This document shows, piece by piece, positions 1,095-27,956 of a stretch of 38,406 nt of DNA. Location of the stretch: assembly GCA_905236645.1 (NCBI GenBank), contig CAJOMZ010000021.1, positions 1-38,406 on the forward strand, written 5' to 3'. The notes under the pieces are model-generated. The model did no database searches, was not told the origin of the DNA, and saw nothing but the letters and a program-made list of their open reading frames with translations. Both the position numbers and the translations under genes were made by a program. This stretch comes from an uncultured Bacteroidales bacterium (GTDB lineage Bacteria; Bacteroidota; Bacteroidia; Bacteroidales; P3). Each line of letters begins with the position of its first letter. The stretch's first letter is position 1.

Positions 1095-1185
1095 GTTGTC
1101 CAGTCGTTGTCCAGTTGTTGTCCAGTTGTTGTCCAGTCATTGACTGGACAACAACTGGACAACAACTGGACAACAACTGGACACC
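1095..1185. repeat. Mirrored 11-bp array forming a 44-bp hairpin
   Basis: Four direct copies of GTTGTCCAGTY (1095-1138), a 3-base centre (ATT, 1139-1141), then four copies of the complement RACTGGACAAC (1142-1185; the last ends ACC). Left arm against reverse complement of the right arm: 42 of 44 positions match. As RNA it would be a hairpin of exactly four 11-bp units per strand. It lies between convergent genes, so it could act in termination or 3'-end protection, but it has no T-tract. Confidence 0.95.
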
Positions 1186-1350
1186 AGTGTTGGTCCCTGT
1201 TAAGCATTGAGAAACAGCAAGTTATCTACATTGTTGATACAAACATACAATCGTCTGTAAATCAGCAGGGTACGCAAAAAGTGTCTTTTCGGAGCATTTT
1301 CAACCCAATTCGGGCGTTGGGATTTTTGTCGGCCTTAGGTTTGTTTCAAG

Positions 1351-1415
1351 CAGATTGGCCGCATCGCCATCTGCGGCGTAGCGGGCTACGTCGGGACGGC
1401 GATGCGGCCAATCTG
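1351..1415 (-). terminator. 18-bp perfect inverted repeat with nested hairpin, probable 3'-end structure
   Basis: CAGATTGGCCGCATCGCC (1351-1368) is perfectly complementary to 1398-1415, and the loop contains a second small hairpin (CGTAGC GG GCTACG). It lies just beyond the stop codon of the carbohydrate-binding protein on the minus strand. Its position fits a terminator or mRNA-stabilising hairpin, but there is no clear U-tract. It might instead be one copy of a dispersed repeat. Confidence 0.6.
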
Positions 1416-1429
1416 CCGAAAGAATGCGG

Positions 1430-3382
1430 CTACTGCAGTTTGATGTGCTTCTTGCCGTTCTGGATGTAGACACCGCGGAAGTTGGCCGGGACTTCGGTGC
1501 CGAGGTAGCGGCCATCGATGCTGAATACGCGCGGGTCGTTGACAATCTGCTCCATCTCTACATCGTCGATGCCGACGGCGCCGCCGATATGGGTCAATGA
1601 CACAGAGGAGCCGCCACTGACAGTGGCGTCAAGGTAGCAGTTGTCCTCGAAAATGCCCGTACCCGTAGCCGTCACGCCTTTCAGGAGTGTGGGTGTCGAG
1701 GGGACGGAAATCACCAGTCCGGATGAGTTGCCGCCGCCGGGACCACCGCCACCAGGCCCGCCGCCGGCAGTCACCTGCGGAACGTAGAAGGCCACCACAT
1801 CGTCGCCGTATGAGAGGCCGTACCACGTGTTGCCGCTCACCGACGAGGCGCGATAGGTGGCCTGGCTTATCGAAGCGCCGTTCTCGACGCCACCGACAGC
1901 GATGACGGTGCCGCCATTGATATAGACCTTCTTTCCCTCCTCGCTGTTGGCGTCGATAGCCAGTTCGGGCGAGCGCGAGCCGATGGCATACAACAGGCCT
2001 CCGTTGAGGTAGATGTTGCCGTTGGCATCGATGCCGTCGTTATTGCTGGAGCGCGAATAGATGTAGCCCCCGGTGATGGTCAGGTCCTGCGCCGAGTTGA
2101 TGCCGTCGTCGTAGGCGTTGACATATATCTCGCCGCCAGTGATATCGAGGTAGTTCTTGCTCTCGATGCCTTCACCGTTGCTGCCGCTGGTAGTCACCTT
2201 GACCTTGCCGCCACTGATGACCATACCGCCGCCGTAGGTGTAGCTGTTGCCGACCTGCGTCTTCACGCCGGCCTTGATGCCCTTGGGCGAAGAGTAGTAG
2301 GCGCTGTTGACGTGGTCGGTATTGCCGGTATAGTTGGTGTTCTCGGTGGTGCCATTGTTGTAGTAGAGGCCGCCGGTAGTGACAACGGTGATGTCGCCGC
2401 CGCTGATGGTCAGCACGCTGTCGCACTTGATGCCCTTGCCGCCCGAGCCGGTGGAGGTGAGCGTGAGGGTGCCGCCGCTGATGTCGATATCGCCGTCGGC
2501 GCTCAGGCCGCAGGCGGCCTTGGTCTCCAGATCGTCTTCGTCCCAGGCGCCCTTGCCGCTGGTGGTCACATTGATGACAGGCTCGCCGGAAATGTAGATA
2601 TCGCCGGCGCACTTGATGCCTTTGGCGGCGATGGCGGCGCAGTTGATCGTGATATTGCCGCCTTCAATATAAATATTGCCCGAGTCCTCATCCTCGTGGT
2701 CCTCGGTGATGGCGGTGGCGGTATCGCCGTCGAGGTCGCATTGGATGCCGTCGTCGCTGGTGCCGCTGATGTTGATGGTACCGCTTTCCATCAGGAAGTA
2801 CTGGTTACACGAGATGCCGTCGCCCACGGCAGAGGTGACGTTGAGCGTGGCGTTCTTCAGACTGATATACTCACCGGCCTTGATTGCGTGCTTCACATTG
2901 CCCACCACGTTCAGCGTGCCCTGCTGTTTGAACTCGGCGTGCCCCTTCACATAAAGGCAGCCTTTCTGCGAGCCTCCGGCAGCGTCGACGAGGGTGTTGG
3001 TGGTGCCGGTTATGACCTTCACGTTGATGCGCTTGCCGTTCTGTATGTGCACAGCGGCGCCGCTGTAGACAGGCGTGGCGTTGGTCAGCGTCAGGCCGTC
3101 AAGCTCGACGGTGGCCTTATAGCTGCCCGACATATAGAACTCGCCGTCGGTCGACGTGCCGCTCAGATTGTAGGTTATCTCGCTGGCCACATCACTGCTC
3201 TGCGCGATAGAGACGTGTGCCCCTTCTTGGGTGACCGTCAGATACTGGCTGATGTTGTCGGCCACGTTGACCGTCGCCGAAGTGCCGTTGTAGACCACTT
3301 CAACGGTATTGTCGCTCTGCGCCTGCACAATGCCGCAGGCCGCGAAAGCAAATAAAATGAATAAGATAGCAGTGTTTTTCAT
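1430..3382 (-). CDS. Secreted beta-helix carbohydrate-binding domain protein (Cthe_2159-like)
   Basis: 650 residues. The N-terminus is a signal peptide (basic MKN, a hydrophobic core, then VQAQS at about 19-23), so it is exported. The body (about 90-530) is a series of short repeats of the type 'DGIxxxxxLxITGGxIxVxxxGDGI', with many Gly-Gly turns and Asp/Asn pairs. This is the look of a right-handed parallel beta-helix and of the carbohydrate-binding family typified by Cthe_2159, whose members bind cellulose or acidic glycans with calcium. A glycine-proline-rich linker (about 540-551) joins it to a small C-terminal module that ends FSIDGRYLG...GVYIQNGKK. That tail resembles short sorting-type tails of gut Bacteroidales rather than a classic T9SS domain. 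It is transcribed divergently from the AraC gene and could be its target; that is inference. Confidence 0.75.
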   Translation of the reverse strand: MKNTAILFILFAFAACGIVQAQSDNTVEVVYNGTSATVNVADNISQYLTVTQEGAHVSIAQSSDVASEITYNLSGTSTDGEFYMSGSYKATVELDGLTLTNATPVYSGAAVHIQNGKRINVKVITGTTNTLVDAAGGSQKGCLYVKGHAEFKQQGTLNVVGNVKHAIKAGEYISLKNATLNVTSAVGDGISCNQYFLMESGTINISGTSDDGIQCDLDGDTATAITEDHEDEDSGNIYIEGGNITINCAAIAAKGIKCAGDIYISGEPVINVTTSGKGAWDEDDLETKAACGLSADGDIDISGGTLTLTSTGSGGKGIKCDSVLTISGGDITVVTTGGLYYNNGTTENTNYTGNTDHVNSAYYSSPKGIKAGVKTQVGNSYTYGGGMVISGGKVKVTTSGSNGEGIESKNYLDITGGEIYVNAYDDGINSAQDLTITGGYIYSRSSNNDGIDANGNIYLNGGLLYAIGSRSPELAIDANSEEGKKVYINGGTVIAVGGVENGASISQATYRASSVSGNTWYGLSYGDDVVAFYVPQVTAGGGPGGGGPGGGNSSGLVISVPSTPTLLKGVTATGTGIFEDNCYLDATVSGGSSVSLTHIGGAVGIDDVEMEQIVNDPRVFSIDGRYLGTEVPANFRGVYIQNGKKHIKLQ

Positions 3383-3408
3383 AAGGAGAAGTATTTATAT
3401 TTAAAATG

Positions 3409-3416
3409 CAAAAATA
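3409..3416 (-). promoter_or_regulatory. -7 element for the carbohydrate-binding protein
   Basis: Read on the minus strand this is TATTTTTG, a match to the Bacteroidetes -7 consensus TAnnTTTG, 27 bases upstream of the ATG. A weak -33 (ATTG) lies 20 bases further upstream. The divergent AraC promoter is about 60 bp away, so the two share a control region. Confidence 0.6.
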
Positions 3417-3476
3417 CACCGAACCAGCCACTCACACAATTACATATCGTCCGCTTTGCTTGGCAAAAAGTCGTAT

Positions 3477-3510
3477 TTTGCCCCCATATCGAAAATAATC
3501 CGTACTTTTG
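3477..3510 (+). promoter_or_regulatory. Bacteroidetes promoter of the AraC gene
   Basis: TTTG at 3477-3480, 22 bases, then TACTTTTG at 3503-3510. The -7 box ends only 4 bases before the ATG at 3515, so the transcript would be leaderless or nearly so if that ATG is used. The in-frame ATG at 3545 would leave a leader of about 30 bases. Confidence 0.65.
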
Positions 3511-3514
3511 CACT

Positions 3515-4366
3515 ATGGAAAAGGAACCGAAATACATCCATCCAATGAACGTTTACCCTCAGAGAATCAGCGATGAAGGCATCGTTGTGTTCGATAACGT
3601 GAGAGGGTTGCCTTCGAGCGACGAGCCATTTGTGTCGGACGACTATGTCATCTGTATCGGGCACCGCGGGCACATAGAACTGATGTACGACAACATCTCC
3701 GACTTCTCCGAGCAGCACACCGTGGCCGTTATCTTCCCCAACCACAGCCTTCGCAAGGTGAGCGTGACCGACGATTACTTAGCCACGCTTATTATTGTCG
3801 ACTCGTCGGCACTCGACGACCCCATACTGCAGATAATAAAACAGATGCGCTACCGCTACGAGCCGCACCCCAATGTGAAGCTCGACAAGCACGAATACCG
3901 GATAATCACACACGTGGTGGAGGGTATGCGCGAGGTCAAGCGGCTAAACCTCCCCGACCAACGGATGCTGTTGACACGCCTGCTGGAATTCTTCCTGCGC
4001 CTACTCAGCCACTACCGCAAGAGCAAACTGAACGAAACCGGAAGCGACAAGCAAGTAAGTGCACGCTTCCACAGCGACCTCCAGCAACATTTCCGCGAAC
4101 ACCGCGACGTGGGGTTCTATGCCGAGCAAGCCTGCCTGTCGACCAAGCACTTCAGCGCCGTAGTCAAGCAGGAAACAGACCATACCGCTGCTTACTGGAT
4201 TCGCCACCAAGTAGTTACCGAGGCCAAGATGCTGCTCCACATACGGCACGACCTCACCGTGCAGGCCATCGCCGACCTGCTGGGATTTGATGACCCTGCC
4301 ACTTTCAGCCGCTATTTCCGTCGCGAGACCGGCCTCTCCCCGACCGAGTTCCGGCAAAGAGGATAG
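3515..4366 (+). CDS. AraC-family transcriptional regulator
   Basis: A 283-residue regulator. The C-terminal ~90 residues carry the AraC/XylS double helix-turn-helix: the first around 198-220 (GFYAEQACLSTKHFSAVVK) and the second around 245-270, ending in the family signature GFDDPATFSRYFRRETGLSP and TEFRQRG. The N-terminal ~180 residues look like a cupin-type sensing domain of the kind common in Bacteroidetes AraC proteins; the ligand is unknown. The start is uncertain: ATG 3515 lies almost on the promoter, and ATG 3545 (residue 11) is an attractive alternative. It is divergent from the carbohydrate-binding protein. About 200 bases after its end lies a perfect 17-bp hairpin. Confidence 0.85.
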   Translation: MEKEPKYIHPMNVYPQRISDEGIVVFDNVRGLPSSDEPFVSDDYVICIGHRGHIELMYDNISDFSEQHTVAVIFPNHSLRKVSVTDDYLATLIIVDSSALDDPILQIIKQMRYRYEPHPNVKLDKHEYRIITHVVEGMREVKRLNLPDQRMLLTRLLEFFLRLLSHYRKSKLNETGSDKQVSARFHSDLQQHFREHRDVGFYAEQACLSTKHFSAVVKQETDHTAAYWIRHQVVTEAKMLLHIRHDLTVQAIADLLGFDDPATFSRYFRRETGLSPTEFRQRG

Positions 4367-4657
4367 AATCCAAATGCAAGACAATCGTAGCATCGTGGAA
4401 TGTAGCGGTGAAACAGGTCGGCACCAGGGCCAAACACGATGTGGATTTTTCGACAAGAGCCGCAGCTTATGATGGAACCGGCGGTCCTCAACGTCCGACA
4501 CCGCAATGCAAAGGCCGCCATCAAGAGCAATCAGGCTACAATTGCCCCACATTGCCTTGACTTGGGTTAAACCCCAATCGGTCATTAGACCGATTGGGGT
4601 TTAAAGAAGACGACAGGATTCTGACGTGTCGCCGTTAGGTTTTGTCGCGAGTACGGG
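4367..4657. other. Intergenic region after the AraC gene
   Basis: The only clear structure in this 291-bp spacer is the palindrome at 4567-4604. Short forward frames exist (for example from ATG 4374, about 32 codons, and ATG 4468, about 34 codons), but neither has a promoter box or a recognisable motif. They may be decayed coding sequence; I see no support for a gene. Confidence 0.5.
4567..4604. terminator. Perfect 17-bp hairpin, likely bidirectional terminator
   Basis: TTAAACCCCAATCGGTC, loop ATTA, then the exact reverse complement. It lies between the converging AraC gene and the redox operon. The A/T ends of the stem give short A- and T-runs in both directions, which fits a shared terminator, though the tail is short for an intrinsic one. 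Confidence 0.65.
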
Positions 4658-5113
4658 TTATTTTCCCCTTTCGTTTTTCAGAGCTTCGATTATCGCATCC
4701 AGCCCCTTCGCCATCAATTCAAACTGCCTGGCGTCGCCGTCGCCGTCGCCGCTCATCAGGTTGCGCACCATACAGGCAGGGATTTCACTCGCCTTTTCCT
4801 CTATGTGCCGGCCCTTGCGCGTAAGGCTCACGAGCGTCTGCCGCCCATCGGCGATGCCGCGTGTGCGCACCAGCAGCCCGTCGCGTTCCATACGCTGCAG
4901 CAATGGAGTGACGGTATTGGTGTCGAGCATCAGCCGTTGGGTTATCTCACTGACAAGCAGATTGTCGCGTTCCCACAGCACCATCAGCACCAGATACTGC
5001 GGATAGGTAAGCCCCAGCGGTTCGAGCAGCGGGCGATAGGCCTGCGTCACGAGCCGCGAGGCTGTGTAAAGTCTGAAACATAGCTGGTTGTCCAGCTTCA
5101 GTTGTTCGTGCAT
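4658..5113 (-). CDS. ohrR: OhrR-type MarR-family peroxide-sensing repressor
   Basis: A 151-residue MarR-family winged-helix protein. The start, LKLDNQLCFRLYTASR, is the OhrR signature: Cys12 corresponds to the cysteine that organic hydroperoxides oxidise. The segment YRPLLEPLGLTYPQYLVLMVLWE and the wing DGRQTLVSLTRKG (about 89-101) confirm the family. A second cysteine, Cys114, is 102 residues away, close to the spacing of the two cysteines in 2-Cys OhrR proteins, so it may sense by a disulfide; that is inference. It follows the glutathione peroxidase gene by 3 bases and is the last gene of the operon. It probably represses its own operon until peroxide inactivates it. The usual partner, Ohr, is not in this window. 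Confidence 0.85.
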   Translation of the reverse strand: MHEQLKLDNQLCFRLYTASRLVTQAYRPLLEPLGLTYPQYLVLMVLWERDNLLVSEITQRLMLDTNTVTPLLQRMERDGLLVRTRGIADGRQTLVSLTRKGRHIEEKASEIPACMVRNLMSGDGDGDARQFELMAKGLDAIIEALKNERGK

Positions 5114-5116
5114 CGG

Positions 5117-5656
5117 TCAGAGCATTGCTTCGATTTCCTTCTCTATTTCGGCAGGCTCTTCGGTGGGCGGGAAACGCTTGACGGTCTGCCCGTCGCGCGA
5201 CACAAGGAACTTGGTGAAATTCCAGCGTATGTCGCTATCCTTCTTGAAAGTTTTGCTAATGCCTTTCAGCATCGTGGCTGTGGCCTTGGCCTTCAAGCCC
5301 TTGTACTCCTCGACCGGAGCCTGCTCCTTGAGGTAGGTGAAAATGGGGTGCTCGTCGTCGCCGTTGACATCGGTTTTCTTCATAATCTGGAACGTGACGC
5401 CATAGTTGAGACGGCAGAACTCCTGTATCTCGCCGTCGCTGCCGGGGTCCTGCTGCGCAAACTGGTTGCAGGGGAAACCGATGATGACGAGGCCACGGTC
5501 GTGGTACTTTTCATTGAGCTTCTCCAGACCGTCGAACTGGGGTGTGAAGCCGCACTTCGAAGCGGTGTTGACGATGAGCAGCACTTTGCCTTCAAACTCC
5601 TTGAAGTCAATCTCCTTGCCGTTGCTGGCGACAGCCTTGAAATCGTAGATAGACAT
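5117..5656 (-). CDS. Glutathione peroxidase-family thiol peroxidase
   Basis: 179 residues, normal for the family. The peroxidatic cysteine is Cys35 in NTASKCGFTPQF. The catalytic tetrad is complete: Cys35, Gln69 (in FAQQDPG), Trp145 and Asn146 (in DIRWNFTKF). Cys81, in FCRLNYGVTF, matches the resolving cysteine of yeast Gpx3-type enzymes. It should therefore be a 2-Cys peroxidase recycled by thioredoxin rather than glutathione, and it uses cysteine, not selenocysteine. There is no signal peptide, so it acts in the cytoplasm on hydrogen or organic peroxides. It sits between the ferritin-like gene (25-base gap) and ohrR (3-base gap), which argues for one co-regulated peroxide-defence operon. 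Confidence 0.9.
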   Translation of the reverse strand: MSIYDFKAVASNGKEIDFKEFEGKVLLIVNTASKCGFTPQFDGLEKLNEKYHDRGLVIIGFPCNQFAQQDPGSDGEIQEFCRLNYGVTFQIMKKTDVNGDDEHPIFTYLKEQAPVEEYKGLKAKATATMLKGISKTFKKDSDIRWNFTKFLVSRDGQTVKRFPPTEEPAEIEKEIEAML

Positions 5657-5681
5657 AACAATAATGCGTTGCGAGGTTGAA

Positions 5682-6137: not shown

Positions 6138-6181
6138 AATTATAAGTTTTTAAACATTTTTAATTTATATCGTTCACGATG

Positions 6182-6189: not shown

Positions 6190-6699
6190 CGAACAATTTT
6201 CATAATACCGACAATCTTCCAGTAATTTAACATTATTTATGATTATATCGTGTGAGATATTTCAACAGGAATCAGAGGTGACCTGGACGTGACTTGGATG
6301 TGACTTGAACGTAGCAGCACTGGATGAAAGATTTGATAAAATTTTACCAAAGCCTTATTAAATTCTACTAACATAAATTTTAACAAAAGTTTGATAAGAA
6401 TTTGGTAAAACTTTGATAAAACTTTGGTCCAGTTAGAGTACAGGGAAACAAGCAGTTGCGTTTTGGCCAAAAACGCGTTAAATTTTATTAAAATTAACTG
6501 TTTTTGTTAAATCTTAACACTTGAAGTACCGAAAGCACATTAACAATCTGTAACACAGAGAGTAAAAATGTTAAAACATAGCACAAATACAGGTTGGCAA
6601 AAAGGCGATCGGGCACATTCGGACAAAAAGAAAGGATGATTTTTGCGTGGGCCTATAATAAATCGGCGGTTTTGTTGTTATCAAAAGTAAAAGGAGGCT
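6190..6699. other. Long divergent spacer upstream of rpoN
   Basis: Apart from the ferritin promoter and the 11-bp array, this AT-rich stretch shows no gene. The closest thing to an rpoN promoter is GATTTTTG near 6649-6656, one mismatch from TAnnTTTG, without a good -33. The rpoN start has a strong AGGAGG at 6692-6697, only 2 bases from the ATG, which is unusually close. Confidence 0.5.
6278..6432. repeat. Degenerate 11-bp array, AT-rich, partly mirrored
   Basis: It begins with three units GTGACCTGGAC, GTGACTTGGAT and GTGACTTGAAC (6278-6310). After two less clear units, 11-bp phasing continues from 6332 (TTTGATAAAAT, TTTACCAAAGC and so on) to AAGTTTGATAA, GAATTTGGTAA, AACTTTGATAA and AACTTTGGTCC. 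The first AT-rich units are roughly complementary to the last ones (TTTTACCAAA against TTTGGTAAAA). It occupies the spacer between the divergent ferritin operon and rpoN. An apparent 75-codon frame on the minus strand is made of this repeat and is not a gene. Confidence 0.75.
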
Positions 6700-8160: not shown

Positions 8161-8170
8161 CTAAAGGGAG

Positions 8171-16982: not shown

Positions 16983-18068
16983 ATGAACTACACCAAACAT
17001 AGCAGTTACGGCAAGGCAATACTACTGACGCTCTCATTTGCCGCCGTCGCAACGGTAGCGCTGCTGGCCTCGGCCTGCAACCGCACCGGCCAACAGCCTG
17101 TGCGCATCAACGGCGAGGCACAAGGCACCTACTACTCCATAATATACTACGACACACTTCAGCGCGATTTCAAAACAGCCATAGACTCACTGCTTACCGA
17201 CTTCGACCAGACAGCGTCGCTATGGGTCGACAGCTCACTCCTGCGCCGCGTCAACGACAACCGCGACAGCGCCGTCAACGACCTCTTCGCCACCCTCACC
17301 GAGCTCTCGGTACAGATGCACACCTTCACCAACGGCGCCTTCGACTGCACCGTTGGCAAACTGGTCAACGCCTGGGGCTTTGGCTTCTCAAAACGGCAGG
17401 ATATGGACAGCTCCACCATCGACAGCCTGCACCGCTATGTAGGCCTACAACCAACGATAGTACGCCTCAGCGACGGACAAACCGTTGTCCGCAAACCCCA
17501 CAGCGAGACGGCCTTCGACTTCAACGCCATAGCGCAAGGCTACGCCACCGATCTTTTGAGCCGCTTCCTTGAGCTACAGGGCGTCAACAGCTATATAGTG
17601 GACATAGGCGGCGAAGTCTATGCCCGAGGCTGCAAGCCCGACGGCAGCGCGTGGAGCGTCGGCATTGAGCGTCCTGCAGCCAACCGCTACAGCAGCCCCG
17701 AGATAGAGACCAGCATCGAACTGCGCGACAAAGCCGTGGTAACCTCTGGCAGCTACCGCAAATACTACGAGAAAGACGGTCTGCGCTACTCACACACCAT
17801 CGACCCCGCAACCGGACGGCCCGTAGAGCACAACCTGCTAAGCGTCACCGTCATCGACACCGCAGCGTGGCGTGCCGACGCACTGGCCACAGCCTTTATG
17901 GTTATGGGGCTCGACAAGGCCAGGCAGTTTATAGCAAATCACCCCGACGATTCCGGAACCCAAGCCGTATTCTTCATCTACAGCGACGGCGACGGCTACA
18001 AGACATACGCAACACAGAAATTCAATGAAATGACCCACAGAAGTGAAAGGGAAGCGAAAGGGAAATGA
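16983..18068 (+). CDS. apbE: FAD:protein FMN transferase (ApbE family), lipoprotein
   Basis: 361 residues from ATG 16983. The N-terminus is a lipoprotein-like signal (AILLTLSFAAVATVALLASAC), so it is probably tethered on the periplasmic side. Family motifs: GEAQGTYYSIIYY near the start, then DFDQTASLWVDSSLL, the FAD-contacting TVGKLVNAWGFGF, AFDFNAIAQGYATDLL, YIVDIGGEVYARG, and the magnesium-site region VVTSGSYRKYYEKDG...SHTIDPATGRPV. It transfers FMN from FAD to a threonine of exported flavoproteins such as Nqr or Rnf subunits; no target gene is in the window. The last codons (SEREAKGK, stop TGA 18066-18068) lie inside the 11-bp repeat array at 18043, so the tail is repeat-derived. Confidence 0.92.
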   Translation: MNYTKHSSYGKAILLTLSFAAVATVALLASACNRTGQQPVRINGEAQGTYYSIIYYDTLQRDFKTAIDSLLTDFDQTASLWVDSSLLRRVNDNRDSAVNDLFATLTELSVQMHTFTNGAFDCTVGKLVNAWGFGFSKRQDMDSSTIDSLHRYVGLQPTIVRLSDGQTVVRKPHSETAFDFNAIAQGYATDLLSRFLELQGVNSYIVDIGGEVYARGCKPDGSAWSVGIERPAANRYSSPEIETSIELRDKAVVTSGSYRKYYEKDGLRYSHTIDPATGRPVEHNLLSVTVIDTAAWRADALATAFMVMGLDKARQFIANHPDDSGTQAVFFIYSDGDGYKTYATQKFNEMTHRSEREAKGK

Positions 18069-18121
18069 AAGCGGCAATACATATCTATTGCCCCCATCAC
18101 ACCACTCCCACCCCCCGTCAC
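18043..18121. repeat. Mirrored 11-bp array A at the 3' end of apbE
   Basis: Units GTGAAAGGGAA, GCGAAAGGGAA, ATGAAAGCGGC (18043-18075) run into the palindromic core GGCAATACATATCTATTGCC (18073-18092), followed by a pyrimidine-rich right arm that is an imperfect complement (CCCCCATCACACC...CCCCCCGTCAC). The apbE stop codon is in the third unit. The array is related to the one at 19023-19153: the same unit family, with the six-base centre of the core inverted (CATATC here, GATATG there). Confidence 0.9.
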
Positions 18122-18150
18122 AATCCATTGCAACAATAAAAAATCAAGAT

Positions 18151-19020
18151 ATGAAATCAATGACAGGATTTGCCAAAAGGCAATGCAGTATCGACACAAA
18201 GAAATACACCATCGAGATAAAGAGTCTCAACAGCAAGCAGATGGACGCCAACGTCAAGCTGCCGGCAAGCCTTAAAGAATACGAGCTGGCAATAAGGGCA
18301 ATAATAAACCGCCTCGAGCGCGGCAAGATAGACTTCTCCATCAGCGAGGAAAAGAGCGCAGCGACAGCGGCGCAGCTCGACAGCGCCCTGGTATGCCAGC
18401 GCTTTGAAGAGCTGAAGACCCTCGCAACACAACTGACCGGACAGAGCGACGAGCAGCAACTTCTTAACATCATCCTCAGCCAGCCCGAGGTATGGGCCGC
18501 CAACGAGGAAGCATCACTCAGCGAAGAGGAATGGAACATACTTGCCGCCGAAGTAGGCAATGCCGTCAGCGACCTCGACGGCACACGTCAGCACGAAGGC
18601 GAAATCCTCAAGGCCGACTTTGCCAAGCACGTAGACCTGATAGAGCAGTATCTGGCCAAGATACCCCAATACGAAGCCGAACGCATCGCCACAGCCAAAG
18701 AGCGTATGCGCTCAATGCTTGGCGACACGGCGGTAAAGGAAGTCGACGAGAACCGCTTTGAGCAGGAACTCATCTACTATCTCGAGAAACTCGACATAAC
18801 AGAGGAGAAAGTCCGCCTCAAGAAACACATCGACTATTTCCGCGACGTGATGGAGCACGAAGAGGGCAGCGGCAAGAAACTGGGCTTCATAGCACAGGAG
18901 ATGGGCCGCGAAATCAACACCACCGGCTCCAAAGCCAACCACGTGGAGATACAGCGATTAGTGGTGGCGATGAAAGACGAGCTCGAGAAGATAAAAGAGC
19001 AGCTGGGAAATATTCTTTAG
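18151..19020 (+). CDS. yicC: YicC family protein (putative endoribonuclease)
   Basis: 289 residues from ATG 18151. The N-terminus MKSMTGFAKRQ and the following IEIKSLNSKQMDANVKLP are the YicC signature, as is the C-terminal block DYFRDVMEHEEGSGKKLGFIAQEMGREINTTGSKANHVEI. YicC proteins are cytoplasmic and have been characterised as endoribonucleases that act in RNA turnover. The frame stays open upstream, but that part is repeat sequence and not family sequence. The gene lies neatly between two related 11-bp mirrored arrays and after apbE; it is probably read with apbE through the first array, as I see no promoter box between them. Confidence 0.93.
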   Translation: MKSMTGFAKRQCSIDTKKYTIEIKSLNSKQMDANVKLPASLKEYELAIRAIINRLERGKIDFSISEEKSAATAAQLDSALVCQRFEELKTLATQLTGQSDEQQLLNIILSQPEVWAANEEASLSEEEWNILAAEVGNAVSDLDGTRQHEGEILKADFAKHVDLIEQYLAKIPQYEAERIATAKERMRSMLGDTAVKEVDENRFEQELIYYLEKLDITEEKVRLKKHIDYFRDVMEHEEGSGKKLGFIAQEMGREINTTGSKANHVEIQRLVVAMKDELEKIKEQLGNIL

Positions 19021-19022
19021 GA

Positions 19023-19153
19023 GAGAAAGGGAAGTGAAAGGGGAGTGAAAGGGGAGTGAAAGTGGCAATAGATATGTATTGTCCCCATCACTCCCCATTC
19101 AATCCCTTTTCACTCCCCTCTCACTCCTCCCTCACTCCCCTCTCACTCCCCTA
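19023..19153. repeat. Mirrored 11-bp array B after yicC
   Basis: Twelve units in 11-bp phase. Left: GAGAAAGGGAA, two GTGAAAGGGGA, GTGAAAGTGGC. Centre: GGCAATAGATATGTATTGTC. Right: TATTGTCCCCA, TCACTCCCCAT, TCAATCCCTTT, then four TCACTCC-type units. The arms nearest the centre are complementary at about 26 of 32 positions, and the right arm is longer than the left. The yicC stop codon ends 2 bases before the array. Confidence 0.92.
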
Positions 19154-21970: not shown

Positions 21971-22365
21971 AATTTTTTTTCATTTTTTGTTTTTTTATGA
22001 TTTCGGCCTGCCTCTGCCGCCCCCGCCTCCGCGAGGTACCAACTCCGTCCGTTGTACAATATATGTACAATAGTTGTACAATACTTGTACAATTGGTAAA
22101 CGTACAAATATTGTACAAGTATTGTACATATATTGGTACCTTGAAGGCCTGAGGATGAGGCGGTTACAAAACGGCCTGAAAATCGGGGCGATTTTAATAT
22201 AAGCAGTTGCAAATATGGGCGTTATATATCGAATGGGGTGCAAAGGGCCGGTTTGACAGTGCCACGTCGCGGGATATGGCGGCCCGGGAATCGCTCCTGT
22301 TGCCCCGAGGGGCGCTGCCGCAATCTTTTTTTCGCCTTGGCATAATAAAATAATGAAAACATAGT
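21971..22365. other. Divergent spacer between the T9SS gene and the TPR gene
   Basis: Contains the 11-bp mirrored array at 22053-22140 and otherwise GC-rich, structured-looking sequence with no gene. A frame on the minus strand stays open through it but has no protein-like character. Confidence 0.5.
22053..22140. repeat. Mirrored 11-bp array, unit TGTACAATANT
   Basis: Eight units in strict 11-bp phase: TGTACAATATA, TGTACAATAGT, TGTACAATACT, TGTACAATTGG, TAAACGTACAA, ATATTGTACAA, GTATTGTACAT, ATATTGGTACC. The segment 22057-22091 pairs with 22101-22135 with about three mismatches, leaving a ~9-base loop. GGTACC at 22035-22040 and at 22135-22140 marks the outer edges. It lies about 85 bases upstream of the T9SS gene's promoter. 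Confidence 0.93.
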
Positions 22366-22373: not shown

Positions 22374-22393
22374 GAAAACATTCAATACGCAAG

Positions 22394-24100
22394 ATGAAAC
22401 ACAGTATACATCCCGGGGCGGCGACGCCCGGGCAGCGACACGGCGCGATGCGCGGCGGCGGACGGAGGTGCCGATTGGCTATGCTGCTTGTGCTGCTTGC
22501 CGCCGTGGGCTGCAAGGGCACGCAGCCCGCTGCCCAGAAGGGCGACAAGCGCTACCAACGCAAGCCGATAGTGGAGCGCAACGACGAGCAGCTGAAGACC
22601 GAGGCGATGCTTATCGACGCCAAGATGCTGGCCGAGACGGGCCACGAAGAGGAGGCGGCGGGACGCTACCTACAGGTGCTGACGCGCGACCCGAAGAACA
22701 CGGCGGCGATGTTCGAGCTGAGCCGTCTGGTTGCCGCGCAGGGTATGGCCGACAGTGCCATAGCGCTGGGCCGCCGTGCCGCCGAGGGCGACAGGGACAA
22801 CATCTGGTATGCACGCCATCTGGCCACGCTCTACCAGCTGACCAACCGCCGCAAGGAGCTGATAGCGACGTGGGAGTCGATAGTGGAGCGGCGCCCCGCG
22901 GTGATCGACTACTACTACGAGCTGAGCGACGCCTACACGCTGAACAAGGACTACAAGGGAGCCATAGCCACGCTGAACCGCGTGGAGAAGATGGTGGGCG
23001 TCACCGAGCCGGTGTCGATGCAGAAAGCCAAGCTGTGGAACGCTATGGGGCGTACCGACAAGGCCACGCAGGAGGTAGAGGCCCTGGCCAAGGCGATGCC
23101 GCAGGTGGGCCGCTACAACGCCATACTTGCCGAGAGCTATATGCAGAACGGCAAATACGACAAGGCCAAGGAGCACTATGACCGCGTGCTGGCCAGCGAC
23201 CCCGACGACCCGTACATCCACATATCGCTGGCCGAATACTACAAGGCCACCAAGCAGCCCCAAAAGGCCTACGAGGAGCTGAAGCGGGGACTGACGGGAG
23301 GCTCCCTGTCGACCGCCAACAAGCTGCAGATAGTGACGAACTTCTACAGCAGCGAAGAGTTCTACGGCATCCACTCGCAGTATGCCTTCGACCTGGCGGC
23401 GACGGCGATGCGCGGCAGCGACGACAGCACGACCTATGCCGCTTTCTATGGCGACATACTGATGCGTCAACGCAAATACGGCGAGGCGGCACACCAGTTC
23501 GCGCTGGCGCTGGGGCGCGACAGCAGCAAGTACGAGATATGGGAGGCACTGCTGGTCAGCGAGCTGTCGGACTATAGCGACACGGCGCTGCTGGCAAGCC
23601 ACGCACGCAGGGCCTCGCGGCTGTTTCCGTTCCACCCCCTGCCCTACTATATTCAGGCCGTTGTAGAGCACGACAACGGGCGCTATGGCGAGGCCATAAA
23701 GCTGGCAAAGCACTGCGAGCAGATGGGCTTCGACAAGGGTTACCTTGAGCCCGAGACCTACGCTATGCTGGCCGAATGCTACAACCGCCTTGACGACACG
23801 GCCTGCTATGCCTACTACGAGCGCGTGCTGAAGCTGGAGCCGGGCGACATCAACATTATGAACAGCTATGCCTACCGTCTGGCTATCGACAAGCACCGTT
23901 TGGACAAGGCCGAGCAGATGTCGAAGAAGACCCTCGAGGCCGAACCCGACAACCCCTACTACCTCGACACCTACGCCTGGATTCTGCACCAGATGGGGCG
24001 CGACAAGGAGGCCCGCAAGTACATCGAGAAGGCCATAAAACGCGACGACACGTCGGACGAGGTGCGCGAGCACTACAACGCCATAATGAAAGGACAATGA
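22394..24100 (+). CDS. TPR-repeat lipoprotein
   Basis: 568 residues. A basic start is followed by a hydrophobic stretch and a lipobox-like LLAAVGC (Cys at about 40). The rest is almost wholly tetratricopeptide repeats of the type AMFELSRLVAAQGMADSAIALGRRA and YNAILAESYMQNGKYDKAKEHYDRVLASDPDDP. The last three repeats (from about 470) are the most regular. TPR arrays are protein-binding scaffolds. The gene heads a row with a DUF4292 lipoprotein (7-base gap), which points to envelope assembly, but the partner is unknown. ATG 22448 (MRGGGRRCRLAMLL) is an equally good start. The last codons (MKGQ, stop TGA) come from a GAAAGGACAAT repeat. Confidence 0.82.
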   Translation: MKHSIHPGAATPGQRHGAMRGGGRRCRLAMLLVLLAAVGCKGTQPAAQKGDKRYQRKPIVERNDEQLKTEAMLIDAKMLAETGHEEEAAGRYLQVLTRDPKNTAAMFELSRLVAAQGMADSAIALGRRAAEGDRDNIWYARHLATLYQLTNRRKELIATWESIVERRPAVIDYYYELSDAYTLNKDYKGAIATLNRVEKMVGVTEPVSMQKAKLWNAMGRTDKATQEVEALAKAMPQVGRYNAILAESYMQNGKYDKAKEHYDRVLASDPDDPYIHISLAEYYKATKQPQKAYEELKRGLTGGSLSTANKLQIVTNFYSSEEFYGIHSQYAFDLAATAMRGSDDSTTYAAFYGDILMRQRKYGEAAHQFALALGRDSSKYEIWEALLVSELSDYSDTALLASHARRASRLFPFHPLPYYIQAVVEHDNGRYGEAIKLAKHCEQMGFDKGYLEPETYAMLAECYNRLDDTACYAYYERVLKLEPGDINIMNSYAYRLAIDKHRLDKAEQMSKKTLEAEPDNPYYLDTYAWILHQMGRDKEARKYIEKAIKRDDTSDEVREHYNAIMKGQ

Positions 24101-24118
24101 AAGGACAATGAAAGCGAC
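24086..24118. repeat. Three-unit 11-bp array joining two genes
   Basis: ATGAAAGGACA, ATGAAAGGACA, ATGAAAGCGAC. It contains the stop codon of the TPR gene and the start codon of the DUF4292 gene. The third unit is close to the third unit of array A (ATGAAAGCGGC at 18065), so this belongs to the same family; there is no right arm here. Confidence 0.8.
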
Positions 24119-24914
24119 ATACATCATTGACAGCAAGAGCGGGGCGCGCCGCACCGTCGGGACGGGGAACCCTGTAATATATATATGTATTCTGGCATTG
24201 CTCTTTGCCGGGTGCCGTTCGCACAAGGAGCTGCAGCGCACCGGCAAGGCCGACACGACGGCAACGGCAGTGAAGCCCCGGCCGCCGGCACCGCCCGCCA
24301 CCGAGAGCCTCGACTACGTGGCCGGCACCGACTTTGCCAGCTACCGCGCCAACTTCAGCTGCACGGTGCAGGGCGTCACGGTGAACGGCCAGATACGTAT
24401 GGCCAAGGACAGCATTGTCTGGCTCAGCGTCAACAAGATTGTGGAACTGGGTCGCGCCAAGCTGACACCGGAACGCGTGCAATTCAGTGCCAAACTGCTT
24501 GGCAAGGAATACGACGGCAACTACGAGGGGCTGAAGAGCAGGTGGGGTATCGACGCCGACTACGCCACCATCGAGGCCCTGCTGACGGGCAACCGCCCGC
24601 CCGACTGCCGCAAGGCCAAGGAGCCTAAACGCACAGGCGACACCATAACGCAATGGTACACACAGGGCAAAGACAAGCGCCAGCTGACAATGAAGGTCAG
24701 CCACGCCACCAAAATGCCGACAGAGGCCGACCTGTACAGTCAGGCGACAGGGCAAAGGATACATATAGTATACGGCCAGCGGCAGGAGGTGGAGGGCCGT
24801 ATGCTGCCTACGAGCATAGGCATACAGATTAACAACAGGCAGATTAACGAGCAGACGACAATAAAGCTTGACAAGATGAATCTGGATGAGCCACAGAGCT
24901 ATCCGTACAAGTAG
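24108..24914 (+). CDS. DUF4292 domain lipoprotein
   Basis: 268 residues. The N-terminal region (to about 28) ends VIYICILALLFAGC, a lipobox, so the mature lipoprotein starts at that Cys. A proline/alanine/threonine linker follows (KADTTATAVKPRPPAPPATES). The folded domain begins near FASYRANFSCTVQGVTVNGQIRMAKDSIVWLSV and ends NRQINEQTTIKLDKMNLDEPQSYPYK, the features of DUF4292, a beta-rich family of Bacteroidetes lipoproteins. It resembles LolA/LppX-like folds that hold lipid, but that is inference. The start ATG is the third unit of an 11-bp repeat, and the first ~20 residues look unlike a normal signal peptide; the real start could be further in. Confidence 0.78.
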   Translation: MKATYIIDSKSGARRTVGTGNPVIYICILALLFAGCRSHKELQRTGKADTTATAVKPRPPAPPATESLDYVAGTDFASYRANFSCTVQGVTVNGQIRMAKDSIVWLSVNKIVELGRAKLTPERVQFSAKLLGKEYDGNYEGLKSRWGIDADYATIEALLTGNRPPDCRKAKEPKRTGDTITQWYTQGKDKRQLTMKVSHATKMPTEADLYSQATGQRIHIVYGQRQEVEGRMLPTSIGIQINNRQINEQTTIKLDKMNLDEPQSYPYK

Positions 24915-24977
24915 AGGAAAGCAGGAGGGACAAATGCATTAGAATATTTGTTATTAAATCTTATAAACAATATAATT

Positions 24978-25730
24978 ATGAAAAAGGCAACGATTATTCT
25001 GGCTTTGCTGCTGGCGGGATGGCTGGGGGCAAGCGGACAGAACCGCCAAAATGTGCCCGACTCGGCCGAGCTGGTGGTGAAACGCTATTACGATCTGCTG
25101 AACTATGAGGGCATCTGCCGCGACAGCATTCTCTACATCGAGACCACTATCTTCAAGCGTTCCGACACAACAGACACGGCGATATTGAAGCGCTGGTTCC
25201 TTATGCCCAACAGCAACCGCGTGGAGCTGTGGCACGGCGACACACTGATGGAGGGTGTCTACTCGAACGGCGTGGACGTTTTCAGGGAATACCGCCGGGG
25301 TGTGCTCGACGGCTGGACGCGCGTGGCAGAGTCGAGATACTACAATTTAGCACCCGACTACGACTTCAGAGGCGCCCTCTACAACAGGAAGGCCGACGCC
25401 GCCGAGATGAAGTACGAGGGGCTGTGGGACTTCAACGGCAACACAGTGCACCGCATATACGTGGACACGCCTTTCAAGTATTGCCGCAACTATCTGTTTG
25501 AGAAAGAGAGCGGACTGCTGTTTTTGGTGCAATATACCAACAAGCACTCGCAGTATACCAACCACCAGGCGTATGACCACCCCGACTGGCACGCCATACA
25601 CGAGTACCAGCCTTTGGGCAAGATACTGCTGCCCAGCGTGGAGAGCTACCAGATGAATGGCGATATGGTGTATCACTTCTCGAGAGGCAAATACCTGCCC
25701 ATAGACAAAAAGATATTCACTGAAGACTGA
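24978..25730 (+). CDS. Secreted protein of unknown function
   Basis: 250 residues from ATG 24978. The signal peptide is MKKATIILALLLAGWLGASGQ. The mature part contains many short strands (ELVVKRYYDLLNYEGI, ILYIETTIFKR, KRWFLMPNSNRVELWHGDTLMEGVYSNGVDVFREYR) and reads like an outer-membrane lipoprotein-sorting (LolA-like) or DUF4292-like beta-sheet, but I cannot assign a family. It follows the DUF4292 gene by 63 bases and precedes tadA by 2 bases. The context suggests an envelope role. An in-frame ATG at 24948 lies upstream but would put a poor sequence before a perfect signal peptide. Confidence 0.7.
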   Translation: MKKATIILALLLAGWLGASGQNRQNVPDSAELVVKRYYDLLNYEGICRDSILYIETTIFKRSDTTDTAILKRWFLMPNSNRVELWHGDTLMEGVYSNGVDVFREYRRGVLDGWTRVAESRYYNLAPDYDFRGALYNRKADAAEMKYEGLWDFNGNTVHRIYVDTPFKYCRNYLFEKESGLLFLVQYTNKHSQYTNHQAYDHPDWHAIHEYQPLGKILLPSVESYQMNGDMVYHFSRGKYLPIDKKIFTED

Positions 25731-25732
25731 CT

Positions 25733-26188
25733 ATGAGCATTATAGACAACGACGACGAACTGTATATGCAACAGGCGCTGCGCGAGGCACGGGCTGCCTT
25801 CGACGAGGGCGAGATACCGATAGGTGCTGTGATTGTGTGCAACGGCGAGATAGTGGCTCGGGCGCACAACAACACCGAGCGCCTGCACGACGTGACGGCC
25901 CACGCAGAGATGGTGGCATTCACCGCGGCAGCCAACACATTGGGCAGCAAATACCTGCCCGACTGCACACTGTATGTCACGGTGGAGCCTTGCGCTATGT
26001 GCGCCGGAGCCGCGGGATGGACACAGATTGGCCGCATTGTCTACGGCGCTCCCGACAGCAAGAGGGGCTTTGAGAAACTGGGGCACGCTATGCTGCACCC
26101 GAAGACAGAGGTTGTGGGCGGCGTTATGGAAGAGGAATGCGCAGCGCTGATGAAGGATTTTTTCAAGAGATTGAGGGTTGATGGTTGA
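25733..26188 (+). CDS. tadA: tRNA-specific adenosine deaminase (TadA-type)
   Basis: 151 residues. The zinc site is complete: His57 and catalytic Glu59 in TAHAEM, and Cys87 and Cys90 in EPCAMC. VTVEPCAMCAGA and the later RIVYGAPDSKRG are typical of TadA rather than of cytosine or guanine deaminases. It would deaminate the wobble adenosine of tRNA-Arg(ACG) to inosine. The start follows the stop of the upstream gene by 2 bases, so they are probably co-transcribed. A nucleoside deaminase of other specificity cannot be ruled out by motif alone. Confidence 0.88.
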   Translation: MSIIDNDDELYMQQALREARAAFDEGEIPIGAVIVCNGEIVARAHNNTERLHDVTAHAEMVAFTAAANTLGSKYLPDCTLYVTVEPCAMCAGAAGWTQIGRIVYGAPDSKRGFEKLGHAMLHPKTEVVGGVMEEECAALMKDFFKRLRVDG

Positions 26189-26270
26189 AAACGGGTGAGT
26201 TAAAGGAACGGCAAGTATGTGTCTTAAAGTTAAGCGATACAAATAAATCAATATATAAAACAATAACAAT

Positions 26271-27161
26271 ATGCAACCTACATTATTGGTTCTTGCGGCA
26301 GGAATGGGTAGCCGCTACGGTGGGCTGAAACAGATGGACGGAGTAGGCCCCAATGGTGAAATCATTATGGATTATTCGATTACCGATGCCATCCGCGCCG
26401 GTTTCGGCAAGGTGGTGTTTGTAATCCGCCATAGCTTTGAGCAGGAATTCAAGGCCAAAATCAATGCAGAGCATTTCGGCAACAAAATCAAGGTGGAGTA
26501 TGTGTTTCAGGAACTCGACAACCTTCCGGCAGGCTTTAAAGTCCCCGAGGGCCGCGAGAAACCCTGGGGCACCAACCACGCCATCCTGATGGCCAAGGAC
26601 GCCATCAAGGAGCCTTTTGCCGTCATCAACGCCGACGACTTCTACGGCGCCGATGCTTTCAAGGTGATGGGTGACTATCTGCGAGGTTTGGAAGGCAAGA
26701 AGGGCGACTACTGTATGGTGGGCTACCGCCTGGAGAACACCCTGTCGGAGAACGGTACGGTGAGCCGTGGCGTGTGCAACGTGGACGACAGGGGCTACCT
26801 TGTGGGTATGACAGAGCGCACCAGCATTGGCCGCGCCGAGGGCGGCATTGAGTATAAGGACGATGACGGCTCGATGCATCCGCTGCCGGCCGACGCAACA
26901 GTGTCGATGAACCTGTTCGGATTCACGCCCGACTATTTTGTGGAGAGCGAGAAGCTGTTTGTCGACTTTCTGAAGGAGCGCGGCACAGAGATGAAGTCGG
27001 AGTACTACATTCCGTTCGCTGTCAACACATTCCTTGCCAACGGCTATGCCACGATGCGTGTTCTAAAGACCACGGCGCAGTGGTTTGGAGTGACCTACAA
27101 GGAAGACCGCCCGATGGTGGTGGAGCGCCTGAAGAGGCTTCACGACCAGGGTGTGTATTGA
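26271..27161 (+). CDS. Sugar-phosphate nucleotidyltransferase-like protein
   Basis: 296 residues. The N-terminal LVLAAGMGSRYGGLKQMDGVGP is the nucleotide-binding signature of the NTP_transferase family, with the GxGxR motif. NADDFYG (about 124-130) supplies the metal-binding acidic residues, and EKPWGTNHAILMAKDAI is also typical. Such enzymes activate sugar 1-phosphates with UTP, GTP or dTTP; the substrate here is not clear. The C-terminus (VTYKEDRPMVVERLKRLHDQGVY) is a short helical tail, so no extra acyltransferase or kinase domain is present. No promoter box was found in the 82-base gap after tadA. Confidence 0.82.
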   Translation: MQPTLLVLAAGMGSRYGGLKQMDGVGPNGEIIMDYSITDAIRAGFGKVVFVIRHSFEQEFKAKINAEHFGNKIKVEYVFQELDNLPAGFKVPEGREKPWGTNHAILMAKDAIKEPFAVINADDFYGADAFKVMGDYLRGLEGKKGDYCMVGYRLENTLSENGTVSRGVCNVDDRGYLVGMTERTSIGRAEGGIEYKDDDGSMHPLPADATVSMNLFGFTPDYFVESEKLFVDFLKERGTEMKSEYYIPFAVNTFLANGYATMRVLKTTAQWFGVTYKEDRPMVVERLKRLHDQGVY

Positions 27162-27171
27162 TTCTTTCCGC

Positions 27172-27339
27172 ATTTCTGCCGCAGGGGAGAGTGTGGTTTC
27201 CCCGCCTGCGGCGGGTGAAGAGATGCCCCCGCCTGCGGCGGAAATCCTGGAAATCTTGGAATTCTTGAACACTCGCTTTCAAGGTAAATCTTGGAAATCC
27301 AAAGGAATCCTGGAAATCATTTCCGACAACGTCGGAAAT
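27172..27339. repeat. GC hairpins and 9-bp repeats downstream of the nucleotidyltransferase
   Basis: Two copies of CCCGCCTGCGGCGG (27201-27214 and 27228-27241), each a hairpin with a TGC loop. They are followed by 9-bp-spaced variants of TCCTGGAAA/TCTTGGAAT (from about 27245) and by the perfect hairpin ATTTCCGAC AAC GTCGGAAAT (27319-27339). The 9-bp units are the reverse complement of the TTTCCAAGA units found at 28033 and 28175. Confidence 0.75.
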
Positions 27340-27355
27340 GCTGACGCATAACATT

Positions 27356-27427
27356 GTTTATGGCTTTGTATAAATCGATACTGTCATTTTTGTTTATGAG
27401 TTTGAATAAATCGATACTGTCAATTTT
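27356..27427. repeat. Two 36-bp direct repeats upstream of the GxxExxY gene
   Basis: Two adjacent copies, starting at 27356 and 27392, both of the form GTTTATGnnTTTGnATAAA followed by TCGATACTGTCA and a T-rich end. They differ at only a few positions. They lie right before the GTG start at 27440 and may carry its promoter or an operator. Confidence 0.8.
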
Positions 27428-27439
27428 ATAGCTATAGTT

Positions 27440-27853
27440 GTGAATAAGGGCATTTCTTTTGAGGAGCGGCTGAAGGCTCTGTCGTACCAAATTCGCGGTG
27501 CGGCGATGGAAGTTTACAATCAGTTAGGGCCAGGACTGTTGGAATCGATTTACGAGAAAGCGCTGATTGCAGAATTGCGACTACGCAAAATCGAAGTCAA
27601 ATCGCAAGTTCCCGTTCAAGTTGTATACAAGGGAAGCGTTATAAGCAACGACCTAAGAATTGACTTGCTGATAGAAGACACCATCATCGTAGAGCTAAAA
27701 TCCGTCGAAGGACTTAATCCCCTTCACTACAAGCAGATAAGAACATATCTGAAACTGACCAACAAGCCCCTGGGGTGGCTGATAAACTTCAACGAAGACG
27801 ACTTCGCTCACGGTATGATAAAAGTACCCAACCGCTATTTCACAACTTTATAA
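27440..27853 (+). CDS. GxxExxY protein, PD-(D/E)XK nuclease-like fold
   Basis: 137 residues from GTG 27440. The family motif is plain: GLLESIY (Gly, two residues, Glu, two residues, Tyr) at about 36-42. The nuclease-fold core follows: DLLIEDTIIVELK (about 73-85, the D...ExK pattern), then LNPLHYKQIRTYLKLTNKPLGWLINF. This is the GxxExxY family (PDDEXK_3). The function is not established; the fold suggests nucleic-acid cleavage or binding. There is no signal peptide. The gene stands alone between repeat-dense spacers on both sides and its DNA is more AT-rich than its neighbours, which hints at insertion as a unit. ATG 27446 is not in frame, so GTG is the likely start, unless translation begins at M28. 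Confidence 0.82.
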   Translation: MNKGISFEERLKALSYQIRGAAMEVYNQLGPGLLESIYEKALIAELRLRKIEVKSQVPVQVVYKGSVISNDLRIDLLIEDTIIVELKSVEGLNPLHYKQIRTYLKLTNKPLGWLINFNEDDFAHGMIKVPNRYFTTL

Positions 27854-27890
27854 TCAGGCACAAACCAAAGTCAAAACAAGCGAACAATTA

Positions 27891-27956
27891 CAATTCCCAC
27901 TAAATTCCAGTTCAATTCCCACTCCATTCCAGTTCAATTCCCACTCAATTCCCGCT
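27891..27956. repeat. 11-bp array, alternating CAATTCCCACT and ATTCCAGTT units
   Basis: Six units in strict phase: CAATTCCCACT, AAATTCCAGTT, CAATTCCCACT, CCATTCCAGTT, CAATTCCCACT, CAATTCCCGCT. The two unit types alternate, giving a 22-bp super-period. The last unit runs into a small hairpin (CCCGC TTT GCGGG). Confidence 0.9.

Follow-up and report, generated by a model that had tools for sequence, protein, structure and literature searches.

Arrays of 11-bp iterons form the plasmid partition site parC, which is bound by ParR. The present analysis concerns chromosomal arrays of the same unit length, found in the spacers of a 38,406-bp stretch of DNA (hereafter the window) from an uncultured Bacteroidales bacterium and mostly mirrored into hairpins, and in particular one dispersed family of them, the F1 element. 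Among described systems, operators of CarH, a MerR family protein, consist of three or four tandem 11-bp repeats of the form nnnnTnnACAn, which are bound on one face of the DNA (PMC9304148). REPINs are doublets of REP sequences that form hairpins (Bertels and Rainey 2011, PMC3116915), and REPIN-type populations are reported to persist for long (PMC8049555). REP families tagged GTAG or CGTC are 20–40 bp in length and defined by their tag, with CGTC also occurring in Bacteroidetes (PMC3733652). Within the Bacteroidales, BrickBuilt, a miniature inverted-repeat transposable element (MITE) of Porphyromonas gingivalis, holds 23-nt direct repeats between a non-repetitive leader and tail, and its terminal repeats resemble those of ISPg1/ISPg9 (PMC4596501).

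The window comprises positions 1–38,406 of contig C21 in a 2.38-Mb genome (G000), whose genus, a group of uncultured gut Bacteroidales, is represented by 120 genomes in our collection. Its closest relative by YicC is the sister species G120 (94%), followed by G051 (85%) and G068 (74%). Sampling was partial and covered ten relatives at 40–460 kb each as well as ten named loci; one of them, L034, is probably the same sequence as contig G015:C8, as both measure 194,782 bases. Alignment of these sequences demonstrates tens of dispersed copies, loci that persist between sister species, gain and loss of whole units, and replacement of cores. With a probability of roughly 0.55, we read the F1 elements and their kin as a REPIN-like population of interspersed palindromic repeats that occurs in part of the genus and in which recombination between copies overwrites the cores.

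The F1 element and the prevalence of period 11

The F1 element of the window (1083..1193) is a new-type member of the GTTGTCCAGTT family, as defined by Tandem Repeats Finder (TRF), an alignment of 28 copies, and mapped ends. It is built from an outer stem (TCAACACCG..), an arm with four 11-bp units, the center CAGTCATTGACTG, and then the inverted arm, and the DNA fold of 1079–1200 reaches −51.5 kcal/mol (z = −11). A sequence-only reading of the window had proposed that such arrays are a genome-wide habit, and their extent turned out to be larger than it had noted: at least 40 loci of the G000 genome match the element at 1095 (80 matches, counting both strands; of 95 candidates, 40 were scored), and more copies lie outside those 40 loci, for example at C12:6828, C12:25631, C14:11178, and C31:13627. 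The 28 aligned copies read TACCAACACCG..TCGTTGTCCAGT.., followed by four units, the center CAGTCATTGACTG, and the mirrored arm, and the ends displayed are mostly TACCAAC../..GTTGGT. A typical element measures 115 bp; besides the outer stem, it has two inverted arms, each with about four 11-bp units, on either side of a short center. Among the 34 elements with both ends, 15 have this length, two measure 104 bp, one measures 126 bp, and the other 16 fall within 108–172 bp. Several copies were found at contig ends (C34:8-107, C87:11881-11977, and C35:23230-23325).

We then counted units outward from the center in 28 G000 copies (56 arms) and 20 G120 copies (40 arms). Units 1 and 2 are nearly invariant, old AGCGG forms occupy unit 3 in 2/56 G000 arms and 9/40 G120 arms, and unit 5 is a variable AnCGGTGTTGG. 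Outside the element, GG at the 11-bp phase in units 6–9 reaches 0.31–0.35 in G000 and 0.28–0.42 in G120, compared with 0.13–0.14 for GG at random positions treated alike; remnants of 11-bp units, decayed but in phase, are present in the flanks. Strict covariation of the outer stems was considered and rejected, as same-locus identity was 8.28/14 versus 7.82 after shuffling (standard deviation 0.20; 47/48 copies), a weak effect in a comparison in which several copies were out of register. By eye, the outer stems of L367 and L239 are exchanged left to right.

Period 11 prevails well beyond this family. In 438 kb, counting the best TRF array per place, 39 arrays had period 11, 21 had period 22, and four had period 33, while periods 9, 10, 12, and 13 gave 4, 4, 12, and 2 arrays, which bears out the predicted excess of 11 over its neighbors. 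Period 7 (14 arrays) ranks after 11 and 22; the window itself begins with two long 7-bp arrays that lack inverted arms, at 1–138 (AAGCGGA x20) and 157–220 (TCACTAA). Autocorrelation of the G000 spacers was 14.0 at lag 11, 9.2 at lag 22, and 13.1 at lag 33. It was also raised at multiples of three (11.2 at 6 and 11.4 at 9), probably because of unmasked coding sequence. The lag-11 signal was weak or missing in the relatives G068 (1.7) and G067 (−0.7), and 70 distant control loci gave −0.1 at lag 11 and 0.4 at lag 22.

An ungapped hairpin scan gave the same picture. Period-11 arms were present in 38/40 long hairpins in 718 kb of G000, in 21/30 hairpins of G120, 4/5 of G068, 4/4 of G069, 7/7 of G045, and 6/10 of G012, and in 2/3 from ten named near relatives. 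No period-11 hairpin was detected in the scanned parts (40–135 kb each) of G051, which had one non-periodic hairpin, or of G056, G067, G015, and G054, which had no hairpins. Control sequences yielded 0/1 in sixteen genomes of other families in the order (197 kb) and 0/7 in 70 more distant loci from Bacteroidota and a few Chlorobiota (788 kb). Across the seven genus data sets with such hairpins, 87/99 hairpins were periodic and 83 of those 87 had lag 11 (82 by the unrounded threshold), with one each at 7, 8, 10, and 14, a count that leaves out G051, G056, G067, G015, and G054. With the F1 family excluded, 39/43 periodic hairpins still had lag 11. When each arm was shuffled 50 times, 0.08% of the shuffles passed the periodicity threshold at lag 11 and 1.6% at any lag, and these shuffles together with the control genomes rule out chance. 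Mirrored arrays are not limited to period 11, as 7, 8, 9, 10, and 14 occur too. Mirrored arms of other periods were seen at L292:12848-12964 (7), L033:6876-6984 (8), L288:18412-18508 and L357 (both 10), and L286:7268-7384 (14).

Core types at orthologous loci

F1-lineage cores of G120 fall into three types, namely, the new type (ACTGGACAACA), type B (ATCGGACAACA, with a center that is mostly CGATCATTGATCG), and type C (AGCGGACAACA, with the center CTTTTAAAG). At seven orthologous loci with alignable flanks (G120/G000: L366/L237, L367/L239, L368/L025, L369/L014, L370/L021, L375/L231, and L364/L230), G120 holds a B or B-like core (four loci) or a C core (three loci), whereas G000 holds the new type. 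Six of these loci were placed by both flanks and L370/L021 by one flank and neighboring synteny. At the three C loci, the center was changed as well, from CTTTTAAAG to CAGTCATTGACTG. Comparing the core types, GGACAAC stays constant while positions 2 and 3 of most units shift together. Both genomes carry the new type at L380/L023 and six further pairs, in part with old units mixed in, and two G120 elements (L377 and L378) are themselves mixed, one arm being mostly new and the other mostly B. All 28 recognized cores in 718 kb of G000 are of the new type, whereas seven new and five C cores were recognized when 460 kb of G120 were scanned likewise. C-like elements also occur in the distant genomes G012 and G002 (L109 and L110), and the C core is therefore probably the older state.

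Other comparisons revealed smaller and larger changes. L227 differs from L246 by one unit, whereas at L373/L233, type B in G120 stands against an array of another family, F3, in G000 between alignable flanks. In G120 and contig G068:C33, unit 3 differs in both arms and the shown flanks hardly differ, as if by core inversion or unit exchange. Over 4.5 kb, this contig (L224, 4.9 kb in whole) matches G120 with 98.7% identity though the two species are far apart; it is thus probably misbinned, and a transfer of F1 into G068 was rejected for that reason. Altogether, 16 sister loci comprised seven old versus new, one new in both, one B versus F3, and seven that could not be placed on both flanks, the G000 sequence compared for the latter being about 30% of the genome. 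None of the mapped pairs gave an F1 copy opposite a clean empty site; G000 lacks an array at L376, although the left flank of that locus is unmatched.

Sites in the window and units across relatives

All seven places named in the sequence-only reading hold arrays of period 11 or 22 by TRF. The claim that five of the seven are mirrored also held, at 1083–1193, 6328–6432, 18040–18124, 19020–19152, and 22037–22140, although the second is imperfect and the third decayed. Their DNA folding z values are −11.2, −1.7, −1.1, −6.2, and −7.7, respectively; the hairpins at 6328 and 18040 are strongly imperfect, and these two folds are thus unremarkable. As a single class, the seven sites survive only in these five hairpins; the arrays at 24086 and 27891 have no inverted arm.

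The F2 element at 22037..22140 (TGTACAATANT family; TRF and relatives) lies in a divergent spacer between genes for a type IX secretion system (T9SS) sorting domain protein and a TPR protein. Its outer stem (TACCAACTCCGTCCG.. / TTGGTAC) is common to F2 and F1, and GTTGTCCAGTT and TGTACAATANT elements share TACCAACxCCGxxCGTTGT. G000 and G120 have the same F2 arms between unlike flanks. The F3 imperfect hairpin at 6328..6432, with units TTTGRTAAAAC / ACCAAAGTTTT, stands upstream of the rpoN gene (TRF, folding, and Pfam), next to a period-11 array of three GTGACTTGGAC units without an inverted arm of its own (6278..6312; TRF). Upstream of rpoN in G120, there is an F1 hairpin of type C where G000 has F3, and a rearrangement adjoins the site.

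Two F4 hairpins (TRF and relatives) flank the yicC-like gene on the plus strand (18151..19020), which we used, on the basis of Pfam, as an orthology anchor. The decayed one at 18040..18124, with GTGAAAGGGGA units, has a clean version with five units in G120, whereas G051, G068, and G069 retain 21–62 bp there and no array; the flanks of this empty site (18043) are too short for reading a target site. The other, at 19020..19152 (GGAGTGAAAGG / TCACTCCCCTC, center CAATAGATATGTATTG), has longer arms and a different center in the G120 alignment, and G068 and G069 hold a hairpin of 9-bp period at this place. Thus, downstream of yicC, G000 and G120 carry 11-bp arrays, G068 and G069 carry 9-bp arrays, and G051 carries none. 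The centers at the 18043 and 19023 sites are near-identical (CAATACATATCTATTG and CAATAGATATGTATTG). In the named relatives L032, L033, L034, and L037, period-11 arrays are present at a corresponding distance from yicC.

The two remaining arrays were judged to lie outside the hairpin class. At 24085..24119 (TRF and relatives), AATGAAAGGAC is present threefold where two genes join, a plain duplication without an inverted arm (ATGAAAGGACA x3, and x2 in G120 and G051). At 27891..27953 (TRF and folding), a 22-bp-period array of CAATTCCCACTCAATTCCAGTT also lacks an inverted arm, has a fold z of +0.5, and is reduced to a stub in the sister genome G120. Nearby, a PD-(D/E)XK (PDDEXK_3) gene at 27354–27853 is preceded by a 36-bp tandem repeat; the gene is present at this locus in G120 and not in the aligned G051 stretch. 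A 142-bp tandem duplication with GCGAAGCGGG motifs occupies 27945–28226, and its version in G120 differs.

The TPR gene (22394..24100, plus strand; Pfam) served as the orthology anchor for the F2 spacer. Of 119 genomes with a match, the sequence upstream of the gene was examined in 30, four of which hold <400 bp. Ten of the 30 have arrays of period 11 or 22, and their units differ from genome to genome: TTGTACAATAT in G000, GTTCTTATATC in G069, ATATGTACAGT in G068, CGTTCCTATAT in G058, CCTACCAACAC in G022, CAGTATTTGTT in G071, GGTCCGCTATG in G098, CGCTATGGGTT in G109, a 22-bp unit TTAAGTTAGAGTTAAGTAGGAG in G070, and, weakly, GACCTAGAATT in G051. All five hairpins in these spacers have lag 11. 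The other 20 spacers include several other periods (14 and 16 in G119, 12 in G132, 33 in G120, and T-rich 6, 9, or 10), and the array of this spacer that belongs to G120 itself sits on another contig (L277). In G044, a 32-bp tandem array of GGTCGCGACCGGAGGGAGCAACCACTTGTGCG with 3.8 copies (L130:1-121) lies at one end of locus L130.

Many units form chains of related sequences. The F1 types, G045, L032, G058, and the second G069 unit (G069b) make up one chain, and F2, G068, the first G069 unit (G069a), and G071 make up another that joins F1 at 8 of 11 positions, whereas F3, F4, G012, L037, L033, G022, L034, and G051 do not clearly join either (p values uncorrected for multiple tests). The period is therefore constant partly by descent. 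A single ancestral unit for all arrays was rejected since the chains take in only part of the units. No F1 match was found in the next relative, G051 (75% complete). Two earlier propositions are accordingly narrowed. That units are mostly unrelated is right insofar as they differ by locus and species, but the outer stem shared by GTTGTCCAGTT and TGTACAATANT and the near-identical F4 centers qualify it. That the period rather than the sequence is conserved agrees with the 83/87 hairpins at 11 and is qualified by the related chains and the other periods. At the same locus, relatives do carry different units, and periodic structure is often kept.

Explanations weighed

In the reading we prefer, core replacement would be a gene-conversion-like recombination between copies, as suggested by the alignable flanks, the mixed arms, and the gradient from the center outward. 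Pairing of unit with unit and copy with copy would tend to add, remove, or swap whole units, and such whole-unit exchange would let the 11-bp register be inherited while the unit sequence turns over, with old units remaining outside as decayed, in-phase rings. More weakly, we infer that a register near one helical turn may be favored by a protein that binds the units along one DNA face.

Several points weigh against recombination between copies. The comparison of genomes offers no direct observation of a recombination event, and the core types agree at 9/11 bases per unit, which is low for ordinary homologous recombination. Between G000 and G120, new-type cores agree at a mean of 0.95 in orthologous pairs (six pairs) versus 0.92 in all pairs, implying no strong homogenization since the two genomes split. 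At L025/L368, one inner old unit was kept while its neighbors changed, which would fit patchy conversion or unit-by-unit selection. Only half of the elements have lengths that fit 115 bp with whole 11-bp steps added or removed. Neither the swap of unrelated families at one site (B versus F3 at L373/L233) nor the occurrence of 11-bp versus 9-bp arrays downstream of yicC is explained by homologous conversion, and arrays appear and vanish, as at the 18043 site. Nor does the model give a reason for period 11 in F3 and F4, which cannot be related by sequence. As a trigger, SbcCD was rejected: SbcD is present in G000 but was not found in G045 and G012, both of which keep hairpins, so an SbcCD cut is no general trigger.

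A tentative second explanation is an undescribed class of chromosomal sites, that is, long-lived hairpin loci with an 11-bp module of exchangeable sequence, in which new types sweep the loci by in-place rewriting, through either a phase-reading protein or a templated writing process. In this view, what is inherited would be the locus and its register, while the sequence would act as an exchangeable cassette. A protein behind the register would imply a system that binds DNA at tens of mirrored targets with several sites each, whereas a copying process behind it would mean a new way in which repeats are made.

Somewhat more doubtful is a conventional non-autonomous mobile element of MITE or REPIN type, which would spread by transposition; where a core has changed, the older element would have been lost and a newer subfamily inserted afresh at a preferred site. 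The tens of copies, the apparently different ages of the new, B, and C subfamilies in G120, and the outer stem TACCAAC../..GTTGGTA at the ends are consistent with it, as are the missing F1 match in G051, the empty 18043 site in three relatives, and the unrelated families in one spacer, which resemble an insertion hot spot. However, no flush direct repeat of ≥5 bp was found at 34 elements with inferred ends, although a 2-bp target duplication is possible (10 observed versus 4 expected at one offset), and the mapped pairs gave no clean empty F1 site. Moreover, the flanks carry in-phase 11-bp relics and are not random DNA. G000 has three PF01797 (Y1_Tnp) matches, one of them on C64 ~1.8 kb from an F1 copy. 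A RAYT-driven spread was nevertheless rejected as a requirement because this transposase family was not found in G045, which is 97% complete and has period 11 in 7/7 hairpins.

It is also conceivable, though we consider it unlikely, that the elements are binding-site arrays, with a DNA-binding protein on every 11-bp unit along one helix face and with selection changing all units once its specificity drifts. CarH operators provide a precedent, and the F1 (TGGACA) and F2 (TGTACA) units contain TnnACA, but this motif is missing, by eye, from most other units of the genus. The joint change of positions 2 and 3 beside a fixed GGACAAC, as well as the F2 arms that stay identical between differing flanks, would suit such a protein, whereas the centers, which are not units, were replaced too. 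To our knowledge, tens of mirrored operators are unlike any known regulon. With gene calls taken as greedy open reading frames, 77/83 period-11 hairpins had both neighboring genes within 600 bp, in 34 tandem, 29 divergent, and 14 convergent spacers, compared with 254, 119, and 75 among 448 baseline spacers of 120–1300 bp from the same data. Divergent spacers account for 29/77 versus 119/448 (Fisher p 0.055), which leans toward binding sites. The CarH precedent, together with the one MerR_1 match of G000, which has an F1 copy ~80 bp upstream, suggested this MerR as the binder, and it was the sole regulator tried. Among 20 orthologous upstream spacers, 13 have no array. An F1 array of type C is present in G120, and G051 shows, by eye, a relic of another unit; the arrays in G002, G050, G056, and G067 have other periods, and that in G123 is weak, with a 12-bp period. 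The period-11 array is therefore found only in G000 and G120, was not conserved as such in relatives, and was treated as a coincidence.

RNA structures at transcript ends, such as terminators or stabilizers, had been an option in the sequence-only reading and are very improbable. The hairpins can be very stable, as the DNA fold of 1079–1200 illustrates, but 29/77 lie between divergent genes, there is no excess at gene 3' ends (convergent 14/77 versus 75/448, p 0.74), and Rfam gave no match within the window. Ordinary short-repeat slippage or an assembly artifact can scarcely be the cause: unit numbers do vary by whole units, other tandem arrays such as AAGCGGA occur here, and several copies stand at contig ends, but slippage, as had been anticipated, leaves mirrored arms, 40 dispersed copies, and 83/87 hairpins at one period unexplained, and such arrays are also seen in named assemblies from several studies.

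With old, mixed, and new cores visible at orthologous loci of sister species, the elements are a naturally occurring example of concerted turnover among bacteria, and in-place replacement of dispersed repeats becomes directly testable. On the practical side, such arrays may break short-read assemblies.

Comparison with described systems

The F1 elements and their kin share with REPINs a dispersed, extragenic arrangement of inverted pairs with a predicted hairpin, in several groups per genome (PMC3116915). However, REPINs as described there consist of two short paired REP sequences and are associated with RAYT genes, whereas the arms here are tandem 11-bp arrays, the hairpins are kept in G045 without a Y1_Tnp match, and cores are replaced in place. 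REP families tagged GTAG or CGTC are likewise palindromic and dispersed, but the accessible part of their description mentions no tandem 11-bp arms (PMC3733652). BrickBuilt resembles the present elements in belonging to the Bacteroidales, in being dispersed, and in its internal tandem array; as a difference, the available portion of its account mentions neither mirrored tandem arms nor an 11-bp register (PMC4596501). CarH operators have tandem 11-bp repeats, and TnnACA is seen by eye in F1 and F2 units, whereas most other units of the genus lack it; the operators, according to the available text, sit at carotenogenesis promoters and are not dispersed mirrored pairs (PMC9304148).

The sequence-only reading had held that no described element family is defined in this way, and a limited literature search, with most subscription journals outside its coverage, found no published family of 11-bp-unit hairpins. 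Judging from the partial descriptions at hand, none of the compared families brings together arms that are mirrored and built of 11-bp units, a unit sequence specific to the species, and exchange of cores in place. Overall, our analysis suggests that REPINs are nearest by architecture, BrickBuilt is the nearest repeat-bearing Bacteroidales element found, and CarH operators are the nearest 11-bp arrays.

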